DNA of 64,000 bases, from contig NZ_CP116034.1 in the NCBI RefSeq assembly GCF_027945075.1, forward strand, positions 744,001-808,000, in the 5' to 3' direction. The notes beneath the pieces were generated by a model, which was not told where the DNA came from, searched no databases, and was given only the letters and a program-made list of their open reading frames with translations. Below, in pieces: positions 30,055-36,405 of this stretch. The first letter of the stretch is position 1. Each line of letters starts with the position of its first letter. The position numbers and the translations under genes were made by a program. The stretch comes from Chryseobacterium sp. CY350. GTDB taxonomy: Bacteria; Bacteroidota; Bacteroidia; Flavobacteriales; Weeksellaceae.

Positions 30055-30804
30055 TTACCAGTTATTCAGACCGTTTTCCAGAGCTTTTTTATAATTTATT
30101 TCATTAAAAGTATAAAGATCAGGAGATTTGTGAGCACCGCCGCGACGTTGCTCATCAAGCTTCGTAAGAATTTCCAAATTCTTAATTTTTCTGTAAAAAT
30201 TTCCTCTATTGAGTTCTTTTCCTAATATTGTTTCATATAATTTCTGAAGTTCAGAAAGCGTAAATTTTTCCGGCAAAAGATTGTATCCTATTGGTTTATA
30301 AGAAATTCTTTCCCTTAAAGTCAATAATGCTTTATCGATGATCTCACGATGATCCATTGCGAGGTCAATCTCCGAAAGTTGACTAAGATAAATCCATTCA
30401 CATTTTTCACTGAACTCATCAACAATCAGCTTTGCATTGTCGGGATTATAGAGCGCGTAATATCCGATAGAAACAAAACGCTGTTTGTGCCATAATGTGT
30501 CATCAAAGTCTTCGAAGTATCTTTCGCTGCGTTTATTTTTACCAAAAACTGCAAATTCCTCCAAATAAACATCAGAAATTCCGGCTCTTTCTTTTAAGAC
30601 TCTTTTGGCAGCATCATCCATATCTTCATCTTTTTTTACATAACCTCCGGGTAGTAGCCACTGTTTGCGATAAGTCATCTGAAGAAGAAGAACTTTAAGC
30701 TCGTTTTTATCAAAACCAAAAACTACGGGATCAGTTGATAAATGTGGAAGAAATAAATCTTTAGCCTCCTCAGATTTTTGTAAAAATTGTTGTTGTGGAT
30801 CCAT
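30055..30804 (-). CDS. Nudix-domain transcriptional regulator (NrtR/AraR type)
   Basis: 249 residues from the ATG at 30804 (MDPQQQFLQKSEEAKD). The -7 box at 30828-30835 rules out the in-frame start at 30888. A Nudix fold covers residues 20-165, with a degenerate box (GGYVKKDEDMDDAAKRVLKE, where the usual REUxEE is RVLKER). This indicates ligand sensing rather than hydrolysis. The C-terminal winged helix includes FTLSELQKLYETILGKELNR. Regulators of this class in Bacteroidota sense NAD-related or sugar ligands. It is divergent from a sugar transporter gene, so sugar control is likely. Confidence 0.88.
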   Translation of the reverse strand: MDPQQQFLQKSEEAKDLFLPHLSTDPVVFGFDKNELKVLLLQMTYRKQWLLPGGYVKKDEDMDDAAKRVLKERAGISDVYLEEFAVFGKNKRSERYFEDFDDTLWHKQRFVSIGYYALYNPDNAKLIVDEFSEKCEWIYLSQLSEIDLAMDHREIIDKALLTLRERISYKPIGYNLLPEKFTLSELQKLYETILGKELNRGNFYRKIKNLEILTKLDEQRRGGAHKSPDLYTFNEINYKKALENGLNNW

Positions 30805-30835: not shown

Positions 30836-31054
30836 ACCCTAAATATATTAAGATTTTTATAAACAAAAAAAATCGCTAAATAGTTCAAAATGAAGCAATA
30901 ATAAATTTCCAGTTGTTTTTTCGGGCTGCAATTCTAGGAATCGAGATATAATGTAACACCCAGAAGTATATAAAACTAAGAAAATTTAATGTCTCAAATG
31001 GAGATTTTATCGCCAAAAGCATTTATCTTTATCGTTTCTTTAAATTTAATGTTT

Positions 31055-32479
31055 ATGATCAATAATGAAGTAAAATCTGTCAACAGGAATTATACTGTTC
31101 CTTTGATAACCATTACACTTTTATTTTTTATGTGGGGATTCATCACCTGTATGAATGATATTCTTATTCCTTATCTGAAACAGCTTTTCAATCTCACTTT
31201 TTTCGAATCGATGCTTGTTCAGTTTTGTTTCTTTGGAGCTTACTTTATCGGCTCGCTTATTTACTTTCTGGTCTCCATGACCGGTGGCGATCCCATTAAT
31301 AAAGTAGGATACAAGAAAGGAATTCTTTTCGGAATTTTCCTTGCAGCTTTTGGCTGTGTGCTTTTCTATCCGGCAGCCACACTGTCTTCTTACGGATTGT
31401 TTTTAGGAGCATTATTTGTTCTCGGATTAGGATTTACAGTTTTACAGATCACTGCCAACGCTTATGTTTCGCTTTTGGGTTCGGAAGAATCTGCATCCAG
31501 CCGGCTCAATATGACCCAGGCTTTTAATGCATTCGGAACTACTATTGCACCGGTTTTGGGAGGACATTTAATTTTTGAATTTTTCTCTGCCGATGACGGC
31601 TCTTTTTCTGCAGTAGCAACGAGAATTCCATATCTGATTTTTGCAGGAATATTGCTTTTGGTAGCATTATTAATTTCAAGAGTTCAATTGCCATCATTTC
31701 AGACAGACGAGCAGGAAACCGTTACTGGTTTAGGTGCACTTCAGTATTCGCATCTCTTATTTGGTGTCTTTGCCATGTTCTGTTATGTAGGTGGCGAAGT
31801 TGCAGTAGGAAGTTTTATCATCAGCTTTCTAGAGCAGCCACAGGTGATGAATCTCAATGAAGTAGTAAGCAAAAACTACCTTTCGCTTTATTGGGGCGGT
31901 GCAATGATCGGGCGTTTTCTGGGAGCAATCTCACTAAATCAATCGATCAGTCAGGGTAAAAAAGTATTGTATATGATTGGCGCTGCAACTGCTGTTTTTC
32001 TTGTAATTTTCAGCATCGTAGATCTTACATTTTCGCAGATCAGTTTCTTTTTAGTATTTATCGTACTGAATTTTATTGCATTCTTTATAGGAAAATCTGC
32101 TCCGGCAAGAACGCTATCTATCTTTGCAGGAATCAATGTACTGCTATTAATTTCTGCCATGCTGAATCACGGCGAACTGGCAATGTACAGCATTTTGGGC
32201 ATCGGAATTTTCAACTCTATTATGTTCTCAAATATTTATACTTTAGCCATTTCAGGTTTAGGGAAATACACGAGCCAAGGTTCTTCATTGGTGGTAATGG
32301 CCATCCTTGGTGGAGCAATTGTTCCAATTTTTCAGGGATATTTGGCAGATATTTTCGGAGTACAGCATTCCTTTATCATTCCGGTATTCTGTTATCTTGT
32401 GATCCTGATTTTCGGCGCTTATTGCACAAAATATTTAGGTCATGTAAAACAGGATGTTGATGCTAAATCAGGACATTGA
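31055..32479 (+). CDS. Sugar MFS transporter (FucP/glucose-galactose type)
   Basis: 474 residues from the ATG at 31055 (MINNEVKSVNRNYTVPL), the length usual for the family. An in-frame ATG at 30989 would add 22 residues. About twelve membrane helices are apparent. Signatures are FFMWGFITCMNDILIPYLKQ, FFGAYFIGS and SSRLNMTQAFNAFGTTIAP, typical of the FucP/GluP proton-sugar symporters. It is divergent from the Nudix regulator and ends at a strong terminator. The sugar cannot be told from the sequence. Confidence 0.91.
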   Translation: MINNEVKSVNRNYTVPLITITLLFFMWGFITCMNDILIPYLKQLFNLTFFESMLVQFCFFGAYFIGSLIYFLVSMTGGDPINKVGYKKGILFGIFLAAFGCVLFYPAATLSSYGLFLGALFVLGLGFTVLQITANAYVSLLGSEESASSRLNMTQAFNAFGTTIAPVLGGHLIFEFFSADDGSFSAVATRIPYLIFAGILLLVALLISRVQLPSFQTDEQETVTGLGALQYSHLLFGVFAMFCYVGGEVAVGSFIISFLEQPQVMNLNEVVSKNYLSLYWGGAMIGRFLGAISLNQSISQGKKVLYMIGAATAVFLVIFSIVDLTFSQISFFLVFIVLNFIAFFIGKSAPARTLSIFAGINVLLLISAMLNHGELAMYSILGIGIFNSIMFSNIYTLAISGLGKYTSQGSSLVVMAILGGAIVPIFQGYLADIFGVQHSFIIPVFCYLVILIFGAYCTKYLGHVKQDVDAKSGH

Positions 32480-32501
32480 TATTTCTGAATTTTAAAATAT
32501 G

Positions 32502-32530
32502 AAACCTGCTTTTGAGCAGGTTTTTTTTGA
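32502..32530 (+). terminator. Terminator after the sugar transporter gene
   Basis: AACCTGCT (32503-32510) pairs with AGCAGGTT (32515-32522), followed by eight T. Confidence 0.92.
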
Positions 32531-32543
32531 TTTATAATTAAAA

Positions 32544-34205
32544 TTAAGCTTCTTCAATTATTTCATCAAATATTACAGGATCAGCGACTTCCTGAAAACG
32601 CTCCCAATCAGCTTCAATTGCTCTATTTGTTTTCATTTGTTCTTCAAGCTTTAATGTCTCTCGATACTGCTTCGCTTCTGCCAGAAGTGTCCATTTACAA
32701 TTTATACCAAGTCTTTCAATATGATTTTTTAAATCAGTAAGTTCTAGTTTAAAAAATTCTTTTCGTGGATTAATTTTATTAAGTTGATTTTTTAGAAATT
32801 TTCTGTGAAGTTGTCTCTCCAAAGCCGGTGCATCATCACAATAAATCATTGCATGAACATCAAATTCAAATGGAACACTTGCATCACCAAGCTCACGAAC
32901 CCTATCTAAAGGTTCCAGACGTCTTGTCATACCAATTTTATAAATATCATCACCAAAAGAACCAACATTTGAAATAATGTAAACATTACCAGTTTTAGTT
33001 TGTTGTGCCATAGAAATTGCTCTACGATTTTTGTCTTCTGCTGTTGTTAGTTTTTCTTGAAGTTCCTCTAATTTCTGTTGGAGAATCGCTTTCTGTTCTT
33101 CATTTGCTCTGGAAACTTGAGCTTCGGCCTTTTCAATTAATCTTTTTAAAGTCTGCTCCTCTTTTTCAGCATCTTTCATTGCTTTTTCAAATTCTTTTCG
33201 TGCCTTTTCTTCCTCGCGTATCTGTTCTCTGATTTCTCTTTGCTCTTCAAGCTCCAATGACCTTAATTCTTGTGCAACAACTGCCCACTTCAGTTCTTCC
33301 AATCTCGCCTGATGATAAATTTCAGATATTCTTGCATTTCTAAAAGCTTTCCCATTAAAATTTACGATTTGAAAAGCATCGTCAATTTTTTGTTTTAAAA
33401 TTCCGTAATTATCTTTTCTTACCGTTGAAAGAATAGAATCAACTTTACCGTTATAAGCATCAATAACAAAATCTATTGCAGTCTTTTTTCTTTCAACATC
33501 CATATACTCGCAAATTCCAGCTTGTCTGTTAACAATCATCATCTTATTATTCACACGAAGTTTTTTTAAATTCTCCCCAGCATCTTTATGGCTGAAATCT
33601 TCTGCAAGCTGATCTAAAAGTGTGTAATTAGGAATCAGGTATTCATTTCCGTAGCCTTTAATCACGTTTTTCATTGCCTGAATTCTATCTGCAATTTCAT
33701 TTGCTTCACGCAAACTCTTATAAGCGTCACCACCGATTGCTTCAGCTTTGTTTTCTGCGCTTTCAATAATCCGATTGGATTCTCTTACCGCATTTTCATA
33801 CAATAATTCTATTTCTCGATGTTTTTTTTCCGTAAGTTCTTTAATATTCTTTCTTGACTCTTTAGCATTTTCTTGCGCTTCCATCAATACTTGATTTCCC
33901 TGTTCCCTCAGTTTTTCATAATCTTTCTGAGCTTTTTTAAGAAGATATTCGCATTCAACTTTTACATTTATTATATTTTCATATTGACTTAATTCTACAA
34001 TTTTATCTTTCATTTGAAGATTAGTCGCCTGAAGATTTAGATTTGCGACATTAAGAGTTTGAATTTCACTTTTAAGCAAATTGTTTTGTACTTCTAATTC
34101 ATTAAATTTCACATCCTTTGTTGTAGCTTCTTTTTTTAATTTCTTAAACTTAATGTAGAGGTAAATTAGAAGAATGGATAATAGTAAAATTAAAATAGTT
34201 CCCAT
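32544..34205 (-). CDS. Membrane-anchored DUF4041 / GIY-YIG (T5orf172-like) nuclease-domain protein
   Basis: 553 residues from the ATG at 34205. Residues 1-18 form one membrane segment (MGTILILLLSILLIYLYI). A long coiled coil (about 20-160) follows, then a DUF4041 region (about 170-300), a second highly charged coiled coil (about 300-400) and a C-terminal GIY-YIG/Mug113 domain from about residue 405 (GNVYIISNV, DIYKIGMTRR, with conserved RVRELGDAS and ALERQLHRKF). GIY-YIG domains cut DNA; DUF4041 proteins occur in phages and scattered bacterial loci and have no proven function. A start at 34280 would add a non-conserved tail. The gene is isolated, with a palindrome array upstream. Confidence 0.87.
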   Translation of the reverse strand: MGTILILLLSILLIYLYIKFKKLKKEATTKDVKFNELEVQNNLLKSEIQTLNVANLNLQATNLQMKDKIVELSQYENIINVKVECEYLLKKAQKDYEKLREQGNQVLMEAQENAKESRKNIKELTEKKHREIELLYENAVRESNRIIESAENKAEAIGGDAYKSLREANEIADRIQAMKNVIKGYGNEYLIPNYTLLDQLAEDFSHKDAGENLKKLRVNNKMMIVNRQAGICEYMDVERKKTAIDFVIDAYNGKVDSILSTVRKDNYGILKQKIDDAFQIVNFNGKAFRNARISEIYHQARLEELKWAVVAQELRSLELEEQREIREQIREEEKARKEFEKAMKDAEKEEQTLKRLIEKAEAQVSRANEEQKAILQQKLEELQEKLTTAEDKNRRAISMAQQTKTGNVYIISNVGSFGDDIYKIGMTRRLEPLDRVRELGDASVPFEFDVHAMIYCDDAPALERQLHRKFLKNQLNKINPRKEFFKLELTDLKNHIERLGINCKWTLLAEAKQYRETLKLEEQMKTNRAIEADWERFQEVADPVIFDEIIEEA

Positions 34206-34335
34206 GATGATTAGTTTATTTGTTTCTGATAAATATATACACAAATTTTTCGGACTCACTAAGGTTTTCCGTAATTTCAAAAATAAACTTTAGTAATGTC
34301 AAAATCAACCGTATTTCCACTGAATATAAACTTCC

Positions 34336-34497
34336 AAAACACCCGTTTTCAAACCTCACAACTTTGCCGGAAGTCACAAAACAAGTGTTTTGTAACCAAA
34401 CAACTTTTACTTTTGTTTCAAAACAACTGTTTTATAACAAAACACAATTGGCGAAAGTTTCCCACAGTTAGTGTGAGACCAAAAACAAAGTTGTTTT
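34336..34497. repeat. Array of four helically phased AAAAC/GTTTT palindromes
   Basis: The 383-bp divergent gap 34206-34588 holds four palindromes: AAAACACCCGTTTT (34336-34349), ACAAAACAAGTGTTTTGT (34376-34393), AAAACAACTGTTTT (34420-34433) and AAAACAAAGTTGTTTT (34482-34497). Their centres are at 34342.5, 34384.5, 34426.5 and 34489.5, so the steps are 42, 42 and 63 bp. Sequence between them is partly alike at a 42-bp period, so the array can also be read as degenerate tandem repeats. No -7 box was found for either flanking gene. Confidence 0.75.
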
Positions 34498-34588
34498 GTT
34501 TCCCATAAAAAATTTGGAACTAATCAATAATTTATTTACATTTAAAATCTATAATTAATGAATTAAAAACAATTAAAACACACTTTGC

Positions 34589-35302
34589 ATGAAAATTACA
34601 TTATCAAAATTGAGTACCAAAGATTTGGCTACGCTTTGTCAGAGAAGTATCAATACTTCGGAATCAGGAAATTTCGCTGTCATCAGCAATCATCCTTTGC
34701 TTACAGAATTGCAGACCATGTATTCAGAATATGATGAGGTTTATACTAAACAGATCTACAGCGGTAAAGGCGTTAATGTTGCAGAAGCAGACAGACAGAG
34801 AGACAACGCCTTTAGAGTGCTGAAAAATTTCCTAAACGGTTATCGAAAAATGACCACCGTAAATCATTATCAGTTTGCAGAAGATGTATATCAGATTTTC
34901 AAACTTTATGGGATAGATATGGATAAAGAGAGCTATTCAACTCAGACCGCTCAAATGAAAAAACTTATCGAAGATTTAGAAAAACAAGAGAATATTCAAA
35001 AACTAAACGCACTTTCATCATTTTCTGCTTTTAGTGAAATGAAATCTAAGCATGAAACTTTTGAACAAATATTTGCCGAACAGGCTCATGCAAATTCAAC
35101 TCTTCGACAGATGAAAAGTGCATCCGCAATCCGCAGAGATTTAGAAAAATCTTTAAAGTCTTTCCTCAACCTCATCACTGCAATGAAAGACATCCCAGAG
35201 TGGAAACTTTTGTATGCGGATATCAATGAGTTGGTAAAGGCAGCAAAAAATTCTTCAGTTAAATTATCTGAGAAGAAAGTCGACAGTAATCATGTTGATT
35301 AA
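34589..35302 (+). CDS. DUF6261 family protein
   Basis: A 237-residue, mostly helical protein (MKITLSKLSTKDLATLCQRS, then DRQRDNAFRVLKNFLNGYRK) of a family I associate with Bacteroidota, often in multiple copies per genome. There is no signal peptide, membrane segment or catalytic motif. Function is unknown. It is divergent from the GIY-YIG gene across the phased palindrome array, so it is a candidate target of whatever binds there. Confidence 0.75.
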   Translation: MKITLSKLSTKDLATLCQRSINTSESGNFAVISNHPLLTELQTMYSEYDEVYTKQIYSGKGVNVAEADRQRDNAFRVLKNFLNGYRKMTTVNHYQFAEDVYQIFKLYGIDMDKESYSTQTAQMKKLIEDLEKQENIQKLNALSSFSAFSEMKSKHETFEQIFAEQAHANSTLRQMKSASAIRRDLEKSLKSFLNLITAMKDIPEWKLLYADINELVKAAKNSSVKLSEKKVDSNHVD

Positions 35303-35338
35303 TAATTAAGCATCAATCATAATAATTGTCTAAAAAAT

Positions 35339-35366
35339 AAACCCCGACTTTTGATCGGGGTTTATT
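35339..35366 (+). terminator. Hairpin after the DUF6261 gene
   Basis: AAACCCCGA (35339-35347) pairs with TCGGGGTTT (35355-35363). The T-tail is short (TTTATT), so it is a stem-strong but tail-weak terminator between convergent genes. Confidence 0.75.
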
Positions 35367-35409
35367 GTATGATTTAAAAATTAAATGTGCTTAATCTTAT
35401 TGATCTTTG

Positions 35410-36405
35410 TTATTTTTTAGAACTTCTGGAAGTGAAAAACATATACGCTAATCCTAACGTAACTCCGGCTACCACTGCCATTTTAGTTTTCTTACTTGGA
35501 ACTGGTAGAGAGGTTTCTCCGTAGATCTGATGAGGTTCAGATGATGCCTGAAGAACGTTACCAGATGTGGGTTCTCCATTTTTAAGCTTCATCATCATTC
35601 GCATTCCTGCGGAAGCTGTGTTGATGATCATTTTAGGGAACATGCCGTAAATATTGACTAATGCTCTTGATGTAAAATCGGGAAAAAGATCTTTTTGAGG
35701 CTGCTTCGCCAGCTGTACAATTTTAGAAGCTGTGTCTCGTGGATCAGACGCAAATGGTGGAACTTTAAAATCTAACCCGGAATATTTTGCGGAATGCGAA
35801 TTTCCCGTGGAACGCTGTATTTGAGGATATAAATTAGCAATATGAATGTCTGCAAAATCTGAAATTTCACCCTGAAGACATTCCATCATTCCACGGATTC
35901 CGAATTTCGTAGAAGAATACACCGCACTGTAAGGCGCAGGCATGAAACCGCCGATAGATACGTTATTGATCAGTATTCCTTCATTCTGTTCTTTGAAAAC
36001 AGGAAGCACGCTGTACGCTCCGTGCATATAACCGAAAAGGTTGGTTTTGATGACCTGCTCGTGAAGCGACATAGGAATTTCTTCAAATTTACCGCTTGCC
36101 ATTACTCCCGCGTTATTTACCCAAATATCTATTCGTCCAAATTCTAAGATTGCTCTTTTAACCAGATTATCCACTTCTTCAGCTTTAGAAACATCCGTAG
36201 GTACGGCAATGGCTTTTACTTCTAGTTCGTTGCAGAGATTTAATGTTTCATCCAGTGCTTCCTGTCCGCGCGCCGCAATTACGATATTGCAACCTTCCAG
36301 TGCAAAAGCTTCCACAGTAGCTCTTCCGACTCCGCTGCTTCCGCCCGTAACGACTACAGTTTTACCTCGAAGACTTCTTTTTTCTAAATTATTTTCTGAT
36401 TTCAT
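35410..36405 (-). CDS. SDR oxidoreductase with C-terminal membrane anchor
   Basis: 331 residues. The classical SDR core has VVTGGSSGVGRATVEAF, VNNAGVMAS, and Ser plus YxxxK in NVSIGGF and YSSTKFG. A longer than usual C-terminus follows, ending in a hydrophobic stretch (MAVVAGVTLGLAYMFF) and TSRSSKK. That tail suggests anchoring to the inner membrane. The substrate is unknown. It is probably monocistronic. Confidence 0.88.
   Translation of the reverse strand: MKSENNLEKRSLRGKTVVVTGGSSGVGRATVEAFALEGCNIVIAARGQEALDETLNLCNELEVKAIAVPTDVSKAEEVDNLVKRAILEFGRIDIWVNNAGVMASGKFEEIPMSLHEQVIKTNLFGYMHGAYSVLPVFKEQNEGILINNVSIGGFMPAPYSAVYSSTKFGIRGMMECLQGEISDFADIHIANLYPQIQRSTGNSHSAKYSGLDFKVPPFASDPRDTASKIVQLAKQPQKDLFPDFTSRALVNIYGMFPKMIINTASAGMRMMMKLKNGEPTSGNVLQASSEPHQIYGETSLPVPSKKTKMAVVAGVTLGLAYMFFTSRSSKK

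Follow-up and report, generated by a model that had tools for sequence, protein, structure and literature searches.

A helix-phased tandem array precedes most sampled genes of the uncharacterised DUF6261 family in Bacteroidota

A repeating array in phase with the DNA helix stands before most sampled genes of the uncharacterised protein family DUF6261. Its unit of 41–42 bp is four helical turns and often holds two dyads spaced by about two turns. The starting point was the window, the whole stretch of 64,000 nucleotides analysed from contig NZ_CP116034.1 of Chryseobacterium sp. CY350. In the MKI branch of DUF6261 loci, the gene on the other side of the array is exchanged between species, and we interpret DUF6261 and the array there as a module that stays in place while genes, often defensive ones, are exchanged in the slot next to it. 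Binding of the array by a protein, a filament formed on it, and the control or capture of defence genes are what we infer.

Results

Four palindromes of the window belong to a 42-bp tandem array

A first-pass annotation had noted four AAAAC/GTTTT palindromes spaced 42, 42 and 63 bp centre to centre, and the sequence and a script confirm them (Table 1), with AAAAC..GTTTT running over 34336–34349, 34378–34391, 34420–34433 and 34482–34497. Perfect arms of 8 bp (ACAAAACA/TGTTTTGT) exist in palindrome 2 only. The pattern AAAAC-N0-8-GTTTT occurs at nine sites in the 64-kb window, four of them inside 34336–34497, and CAAAACANNTGTTTTG with up to two mismatches is weakly enriched in the window (four sites against 1.53 expected, with four or more in 6 of 100 shuffles). 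Periodicity is the stronger evidence, the best self-match of the stretch being at lag 42 with 57% identity against 28% expected. The four palindromes are the visible part of a larger feature, a degenerate 42-bp tandem array; the tandem repeat, previously offered as an alternative to the palindromes, and the palindromes themselves are both true descriptions of it.

A DNA search turned up similar sequences in close relatives and at other places in the host genome. Of eight stretches fetched, seven have, like the window, a period of 41 or 42 bp or double that; the eighth, L041 (889668), was set aside as a lone palindrome with no array around it. The further genomic copies for which a search had been proposed are present: with up to two mismatches, the palindrome 18-mer has 16 sites in the host genome compared with five for the reversed control, including a second pair exactly 42 bp apart (487686/487728). 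A profile made from 19 stretches of up to two units, which detects window-type arrays only, finds array loci in this genome at about 487.6, 778.4 (the window), 2584.7, 2593.1 and 3290.6 kb. A weak match at about 1155.1 kb is also an array, and another at 30763 (about 30.8 kb) was rejected as lying inside a gene.

Conservation in relatives, which the annotation had made its check, is partial. The orthologous array of G018 is 82% identical over 300 bp. In the BGARF1 orthologue (Chryseobacterium sp.) the spacing of the palindromes is free of indels and palindromes 1 and 2 keep their AAAAC/GTTTT cores, but palindromes 3 and 4 each have one broken arm pair. Most palindromes are degraded in the C. 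arachidis orthologue, where a 41-bp array persists. The stretch ACAAAGTTGTTTTGT of palindrome 4 is unchanged in both aligned orthologues, though one outer arm pair differs.

Table 1 Features of the window around the array
Feature	Position	Strand	Basis
MFS transporter gene, conserved far flank of slot	30989..32479	+	82% DNA identity to G018 over 30976-32534
Slot gene, SNIPE / PD-Lambda-1 homologue (DUF4041 + GIY-YIG; N-terminal hydrophobic stretch)	32544..34205	-	PADLOC, Pfam
Slot-side boundary: CCGTA (34269-34273), CCGTATTTCCAC (34309-34320)	34269..34320	.	breakpoint vs G018 ~34295
Phased palindrome array, degenerate 42-bp tandem repeat, four AAAAC/GTTTT dyads	34336..34497	.	sequence, lag-42 self-match
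Palindrome 1	34336..34349	.	centre 34342.5
Palindrome 2, ACAAAACA-AG-TGTTTTGT	34376..34393	.	centre 34384.5
Palindrome 3	34419..34434	.	centre 34426.5
Palindrome 4, containing stretch ACAAAGTTGTTTTGT	34482..34497	.	centre 34489.5
Putative DUF6261 promoter: TTTG (34513-34516), 20 bp, TACATTTA (34537-34544)	34513..34544	+	motif match
DUF6261 protein, 237 aa, all-helical model	34589..35302	+	Pfam PF19775 E 9.7e-22; AlphaFold2
Short-chain dehydrogenase gene, conserved flank on DUF6261 side	35410..36405	-	comparison with G018, Pfam

The array accompanies DUF6261

Loci of DUF6261 were drawn from samples of the genus, family, order, class and phylum, with 60 extra stretches and five named loci. From 158 loci, 156 with a DUF6261 ORF were obtained, and 145 distinct ones remained once ORFs below 150 aa, duplicates, short upstream regions and N-runs had been dropped. 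The 450 bp preceding each ORF were compared with themselves without gaps at lags 41 and 42, and an array was called when the best match scored at least 16. By this test an upstream array is present at 109 of the 145 distinct loci, all from Bacteroidota, and 36 fall below the threshold. In an earlier set of 122 distinct loci, 90 pass upstream compared with one downstream. Among neighbour genes, 1 of 142 passes; among 381 host genes taken from 20 sample stretches and the window, the two that pass both share the window gap, leaving 0 of the other 379. Each of the three DUF6261 genes in the host genome is directly preceded by a 41/42-bp signal (scores 72, 19 and 32), and the sequences differ.

Outside the family of the host, 14 of 19 readable DUF6261 loci have an array (lags 41, 42 and 82–84; score at least 16). 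These 19 span seven families besides that of the host, and five of the seven (f2, f26, f71, f83 and f97) include positives; L087, L110, L161, L166 and L167 are negative, and two more loci were unreadable because of N-runs. When branches are named, roughly, after the letters with which the ORF begins, the pass rate is 40/53 for MKI, 27/30 for MN and 42/62 for other loci. XRE-type genes with varied HTH parts and a conserved coiled-coil tail (EKLIEQYEERIKELK) precede the array of MN-type DUF6261 genes in L082, L157, L240, L241, L243–L246 and other loci.

Helical phasing, which had been claimed for the window, is on these counts a general property, since the 109 loci repeat at 41 or 42 bp and many of them have unrelated sequences. 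The array is not peculiar to the divergent promoter pair of the window; its companion is DUF6261 and not the GIY-YIG gene.

Period and symmetry are kept between unrelated arrays

Between loci the array sequences diverge completely, some being wholly unrelated (for example L042, L080, L109 and L111), while the 41–42 bp period and the enrichment of palindromes stay; the number of units differs among species. Unit consensuses were analysed for 139 of the 144 arrays scoring at least 20, some of which are orthologous and therefore not all independent. The best dyad matches in at least 8 of 10 pairs in 57 of them, against 9.2 for shuffled units, and in at least 9 of 10 pairs in 21, against 0.9. Units often have two dyads about 21 bp apart, and a second dyad half a period off occurs in 35 of the 139 arrays, compared with 11.8 for shuffled units. 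The distances between strong dyads cluster at 20.5–21, 41–42, 61.5–63 and 82–84 bp. That period and symmetry are kept while sequence is not suggests that dimers of a protein sit along one face of the DNA duplex; the helical phasing fits dimers placed side by side along that face. Two other signals were discarded, the lag-42 signal of L130/L313 being located in a gene and L125 being a 15-bp minisatellite.

The DUF6261 gene and its putative promoter

The window protein scores 78 bits against Pfam PF19775 (cut-off 27), and its nearest named relatives are from Chryseobacterium. Its AlphaFold2 model has a pLDDT of 86.3 and a pTM of 0.74. Fold searches with DUF6261 gave no clear relative, helical bundles scoring middling by chance, and neither fold nor domain searches recognised a DNA-binding fold; no WYL or HTH domain was found, and no Y1/HUH transposase model is matched. 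Nothing at E < 0.03 was obtained with PADLOC for six DUF6261 proteins and nothing convincing with NCBIfam for three, and the best PHROGs match for five (E 0.0062) is to a family of unknown function. The median pI is basic in the MKI type (8.5) and acidic in the MN type (5.05).

Upstream of the window gene lies a TTTG / TACATTTA motif, which we take to be a promoter of the Bacteroidetes −33/−7 type. The pattern TTTG-N17-22-TAnnTTT[GA] occurs in 38 of 53 MKI loci against 0.8 in shuffles, in 10 of 119 control genes and in 6 of 92 non-MKI DUF6261 loci. In 21 of the 38 MKI motif loci it starts 76–79 bp before the ATG. The array of MKI loci reaches to within a median of 78 bp of the start codon and so directly borders the putative promoter at its −33 box.

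An inverted repeat flanked by A and T runs (35337–35370), in the gap that separates DUF6261 from the dehydrogenase gene, probably serves as a terminator in both directions; the weak Rfam matches at this place are below threshold.

An exchangeable slot beside the module

The slot gene of the window matches PADLOC PD-Lambda-1 (E 1.8e-106) and Pfam DUF4041 and T5orf172/MUG113, and its translation reads as having a hydrophobic N-terminus. In the accessible part of its description, SNIPE is a nuclease bound to the membrane that cleaves phage DNA as it is being injected; its order of parts, N-terminal hydrophobic stretch, DUF4041 and GIY-YIG, is also that of the window product (PMC13190303). The likeness is confined to the slot gene, the same part of that source mentioning neither DUF6261 nor a repeat array (PMC13190303).

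Compared with G018, the flanks are common up to 32534 and from 34295, and 32535–34294 is replaced by an unrelated gene; the block of array and DUF6261 (34295–35248) is 81% identical. Relative to G018, CCGTA (34269) and CCGTATTTCCAC (34309) bracket the slot edge. The latter has one mismatch to a box of other loci, CCGTATTTnTAC, whose strict form is found in 10 of 53 MKI loci, 1 of 93 others and 0 reversed or shuffled controls. The array does not belong to the SNIPE gene, since its orthologues in G018 and C. arachidis adjoin an unrelated 601-aa gene (with a PDC-S71 match in C. arachidis).

The exchange recurs within the MKI branch. Where both neighbours have at least 100 aa, 19 pairs of MKI loci have a common downstream gene family and 0 of the 19 have a common upstream family; without the length limit there are 28 such pairs, again with 0. 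Three MKI pairs with a common upstream family are at different sites. Among non-MKI loci the upstream gene is common to 4 of 14 same-site pairs.

A set of 41 upstream neighbours was compared with PADLOC, many of them cut by the ends of the 1.5-kb flanks. It comprises 36 of 44 MKI/MRI loci whose upstream neighbour reaches 100 aa, three MRF/MKV loci, the window and L040, and leaves out L115, L177, L178, L187, L203, L204, L214 and L220. The upstream neighbour points away from DUF6261 in 36 of 39 loci of the set (window and L040 excluded). At E 1e-8 the 41 upstream neighbours match 169 PADLOC families, and the 41 downstream neighbours match four, with one or two members each. When 32 upstream neighbours were tested singly (L315, orthologous to L314, and eight below 190 aa omitted), 14 matched anti-phage models and 18 none. 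The difference from the downstream side gives a Fisher p of 0.0005 if 3 of 41 downstream genes match and 0.008 if 6 of 41 do. The matches are to SNIPE/PD-Lambda-1 (three), SpbK, KwaA, PtuA, Drt4, PDC-S71, PDC-S66/ThsB, PDC-M01A, three Old/HEC-type AAA-ATPases and one Old/AriA protein; several AAA-ATPases match weakly (best E 3.9e-10 for L091). A Pfam chloramphenicol acetyltransferase match occurs in one of the 41 upstream neighbours, probably L206:298-924, the member having been picked by eye.

Parts of the assembly also occur separately. L352 combines an array with a SNIPE gene (82% identical over 331 aa) and has no DUF6261 within its 1.5-kb flank. L269 has an array alone, without slot gene or DUF6261, flanked by homologues of one gene lying downstream of the C. 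arachidis module and of an MFS gene known from other DUF6261 loci. In 30 loci with the short-chain dehydrogenase gene of the window, DUF6261 lies within 1.5 kb in four, one (L352) has the array only, and 25 have neither.

Arrays away from DUF6261

In a genus sample of 118 genomes, DUF6261 is present in 56 and window-type arrays (E 1e-4) in 47. These arrays occur in 39 of the 56 DUF6261-positive genomes compared with 8 of the 62 negative ones (Fisher 1.8e-10, compared by hand), the genomes not being phylogenetically independent. The 150 matches listed make 72 array loci, of which, among the matches listed, 12 have DUF6261 within 1.5 kb and 60 do not. Such distant arrays are found in at least 34 of the 56 positive genomes compared with 8 of the 62 negative ones, any match being counted for the latter (Fisher 8.7e-8, uncorrected for kinship). 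Counted by hand from the matches listed, they occur in 4 of 7 genomes with only the long-match, mostly MN-type DUF6261 and in 30 of 49 with the MKI type, branches being separated here by the range of the Pfam match; they thus do not track the DUF6261 branch.

A position between divergent promoters, as described by the first-pass annotation, is true of the window gap, but many related arrays sit otherwise. Among the matches listed, the 60 distant arrays lie in 28 codirectional, 18 convergent and 12 divergent gaps, with one at a locus edge without a left gene and one in a probably spurious 129-aa ORF; host-genome gaps of at least 250 bp in the sample number 45 codirectional, 11 convergent and 21 divergent. 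Across related species the arrays recur in corresponding gaps, in groups of 11, 10, 10, 8, 5, 3, 3, 2 and 2 loci, with six singles. Given this recurrence and the convergent placement, the distant arrays look old and not tied to promoters.

One recurrent array lies beside what appears by eye to be an sbcD-like gene (L267, L280, L284, L295, L297, L301, L303, L304, L306, L308 and L312, probably also the host locus at about 3290.6 kb, L075), and it is itself palindromic. The sbcD product is part of a nuclease that cleaves palindromic DNA. At about 11.55–11.67 kb of the host genome (L119:11550-11665), a convergent gap without a neighbouring DUF6261 gene holds an array that resembles those of MN loci.

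Discussion

We give about an even chance to the reading that the DUF6261-associated phased array is a dimer-bound platform at the fixed edge of an exchangeable defence-gene slot, with DUF6261 or its complex as the binder. Dimers of one protein would occupy every dyad, side by side on one face of the DNA, and the occupied array would become a cooperative nucleoprotein platform. Most simply, the binder would be DUF6261 or a complex containing it; since the array follows DUF6261 and not XRE, and DUF6261 is without a recognised fold relative, this is the best, not a strong, claim for the binder. The platform would set the expression of DUF6261 and perhaps that of the defence gene pointing the other way; slot genes would be swapped up to a fixed edge marked by the array. 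Distant arrays would be further sites of the same protein, or remnants of such modules.

Several findings count against this explanation. Promoter control would be senseless for the 18 of 60 distant arrays (among the matches listed) in convergent gaps, and the promoter motif is scarce outside the MKI branch (6 of 92 loci). DUF6261 lacks a recognised DNA-binding fold, and the acidity of its MN branch is odd for a DNA binder. A quarter of the distinct DUF6261 loci (36 of 145) fall below the array threshold, and arrays occur in eight genomes without DUF6261, as well as next to SNIPE without DUF6261 in L352. The defence link covers the MKI branch, where 18 of 32 slot genes match no defence model.

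The array could instead be the operator of an HTH regulator, such as an XRE protein with a coiled-coil tail, DUF6261 being merely one target gene. XRE dimers typically bind palindromes, an XRE gene lies upstream of DUF6261 in the same direction in 15 loci and adjoins it in any arrangement in 20 of 156, and the array of MKI loci abuts the putative promoter. Most DUF6261 loci, however, have no adjoining XRE gene, and XRE matches are found in 115 of 118 genomes of the genus. Among 30 XRE loci, an array lies downstream of the XRE gene in nine of ten that are next to DUF6261 compared with two of 20 others, and both of these belong to DUF6261-positive genomes, so that we consider an XRE operator unlikely. 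A platform for gene exchange, in which the array or the CCGTA boxes on the slot side are sites of site-specific or homologous exchange and DUF6261 is an accessory DNA-architecture protein, would account for the swap breakpoint relative to G018, 41 bp outside palindrome 1, for the absence of a common slot gene in the same-site pairs, and for the CCGTATTTnTAC boxes, of which the window has a one-mismatch version; the slot gene without DUF6261 in L352 and the solitary array of L269 would also be accommodated. It appears quite unlikely: the strict box is missing from 43 of 53 MKI loci, no recombinase recurs beside the module except the RAYT-like gene of five loci, the swap junctions have been mapped in one genome pair, and plain homologous recombination in conserved flanks could produce the swaps.

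Spread as a selfish or neutral extragenic repeat, either REP-like or a minisatellite and driven by a RAYT transposase or by slippage, would leave DUF6261 without a role. Dispersed copies in intergenic gaps of all orientations, a unit number that varies between species, and a RAYT-like gene on the far side of the array in 5 of 156 loci (the L105 copy matches NF047646 at E 1.3e-26) speak for such a repeat. Set against them are the rarity of RAYT at DUF6261 loci, the position of arrays upstream and not downstream of DUF6261 in several families and with unrelated sequences, the period fixed at 41–42 bp, and the retention of arrays in the same gaps in groups of up to 11 loci, and we judge a selfish repeat very improbable. 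If the array were transcribed, its palindromes could form the hairpins of a small RNA or leader. Folding of 34330–34505 gave z-scores of −1.21 (RNA) and −1.88 (DNA), RNAalifold found no consensus pairs in the 19 stretches, Rfam on 3 kb returned only sub-threshold matches with none at gathering score, and RNA hairpins would not require a 41–42 bp period; we regard this possibility as very remote.

A domain of unknown function gains a testable partner, a DNA array whose free sequence and fixed helical period suggest a protein that recognises symmetry and spacing. New anti-phage genes of Bacteroidota can be sought with the fixed module and its slot of swapped, often defensive genes as a marker, which also offers a concrete site for studying how bacteria of this phylum acquire and regulate their defence genes. 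A relative of the SNIPE nuclease, the mechanism of which is given in the accessible part of its description (PMC13190303), is thereby placed in a defined genomic context. A bolder proposal, which we hold to be rather doubtful, is that DUF6261 and the 41–42 bp array form a general socket for anti-phage genes in Bacteroidota: an array coated with protein would serve single defence genes as both exchange place and expression control, with other arrays acting in trans as sinks or partner sites. We found no description of DUF6261 with an array in the open-licence literature; in the accessible part of one article the family is mentioned as a row of a mutation table (PMC10376253).

Similarities to three further known systems can be noted. 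The partition systems ParR/parC and TubR/tubC have iterated phased sites directly upstream of the promoter of the binder gene, as the array has with respect to the presumed binder. Unlike these, the DUF6261 module is chromosomal, is present as several arrays per genome and involves a protein with no recognised DNA-binding fold; no recurrent partition NTPase was seen among the largest clusters of flanking genes (about 1.5-kb flanks of DUF6261 loci). BrxR and CapW are regulators of defence operons, and the combination of a small gene and palindromic sites beside many types of anti-phage genes is similar. Here, however, no WYL or HTH domain was found, a long tandem array takes the place of one operator, and the module persists while the neighbour gene swaps. 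REP/RAYT elements also combine a gene adjoining palindromes with relatives dispersed over the genome, as extragenic repeats, and 60 of the 72 array loci (among the matches listed) have no DUF6261 within 1.5 kb. The resemblance does not extend to the protein, which matches no HUH transposase model, or to the phased 41–42 bp tandem units on the upstream side, where a RAYT-like neighbour is the exception.

The RAYT-like gene lies across the array from DUF6261 in L105, L182, L183, L192 and L318, L183 and L318, whose contigs are equally long, probably being one locus. In L105, REP-like hairpins are present near this gene.
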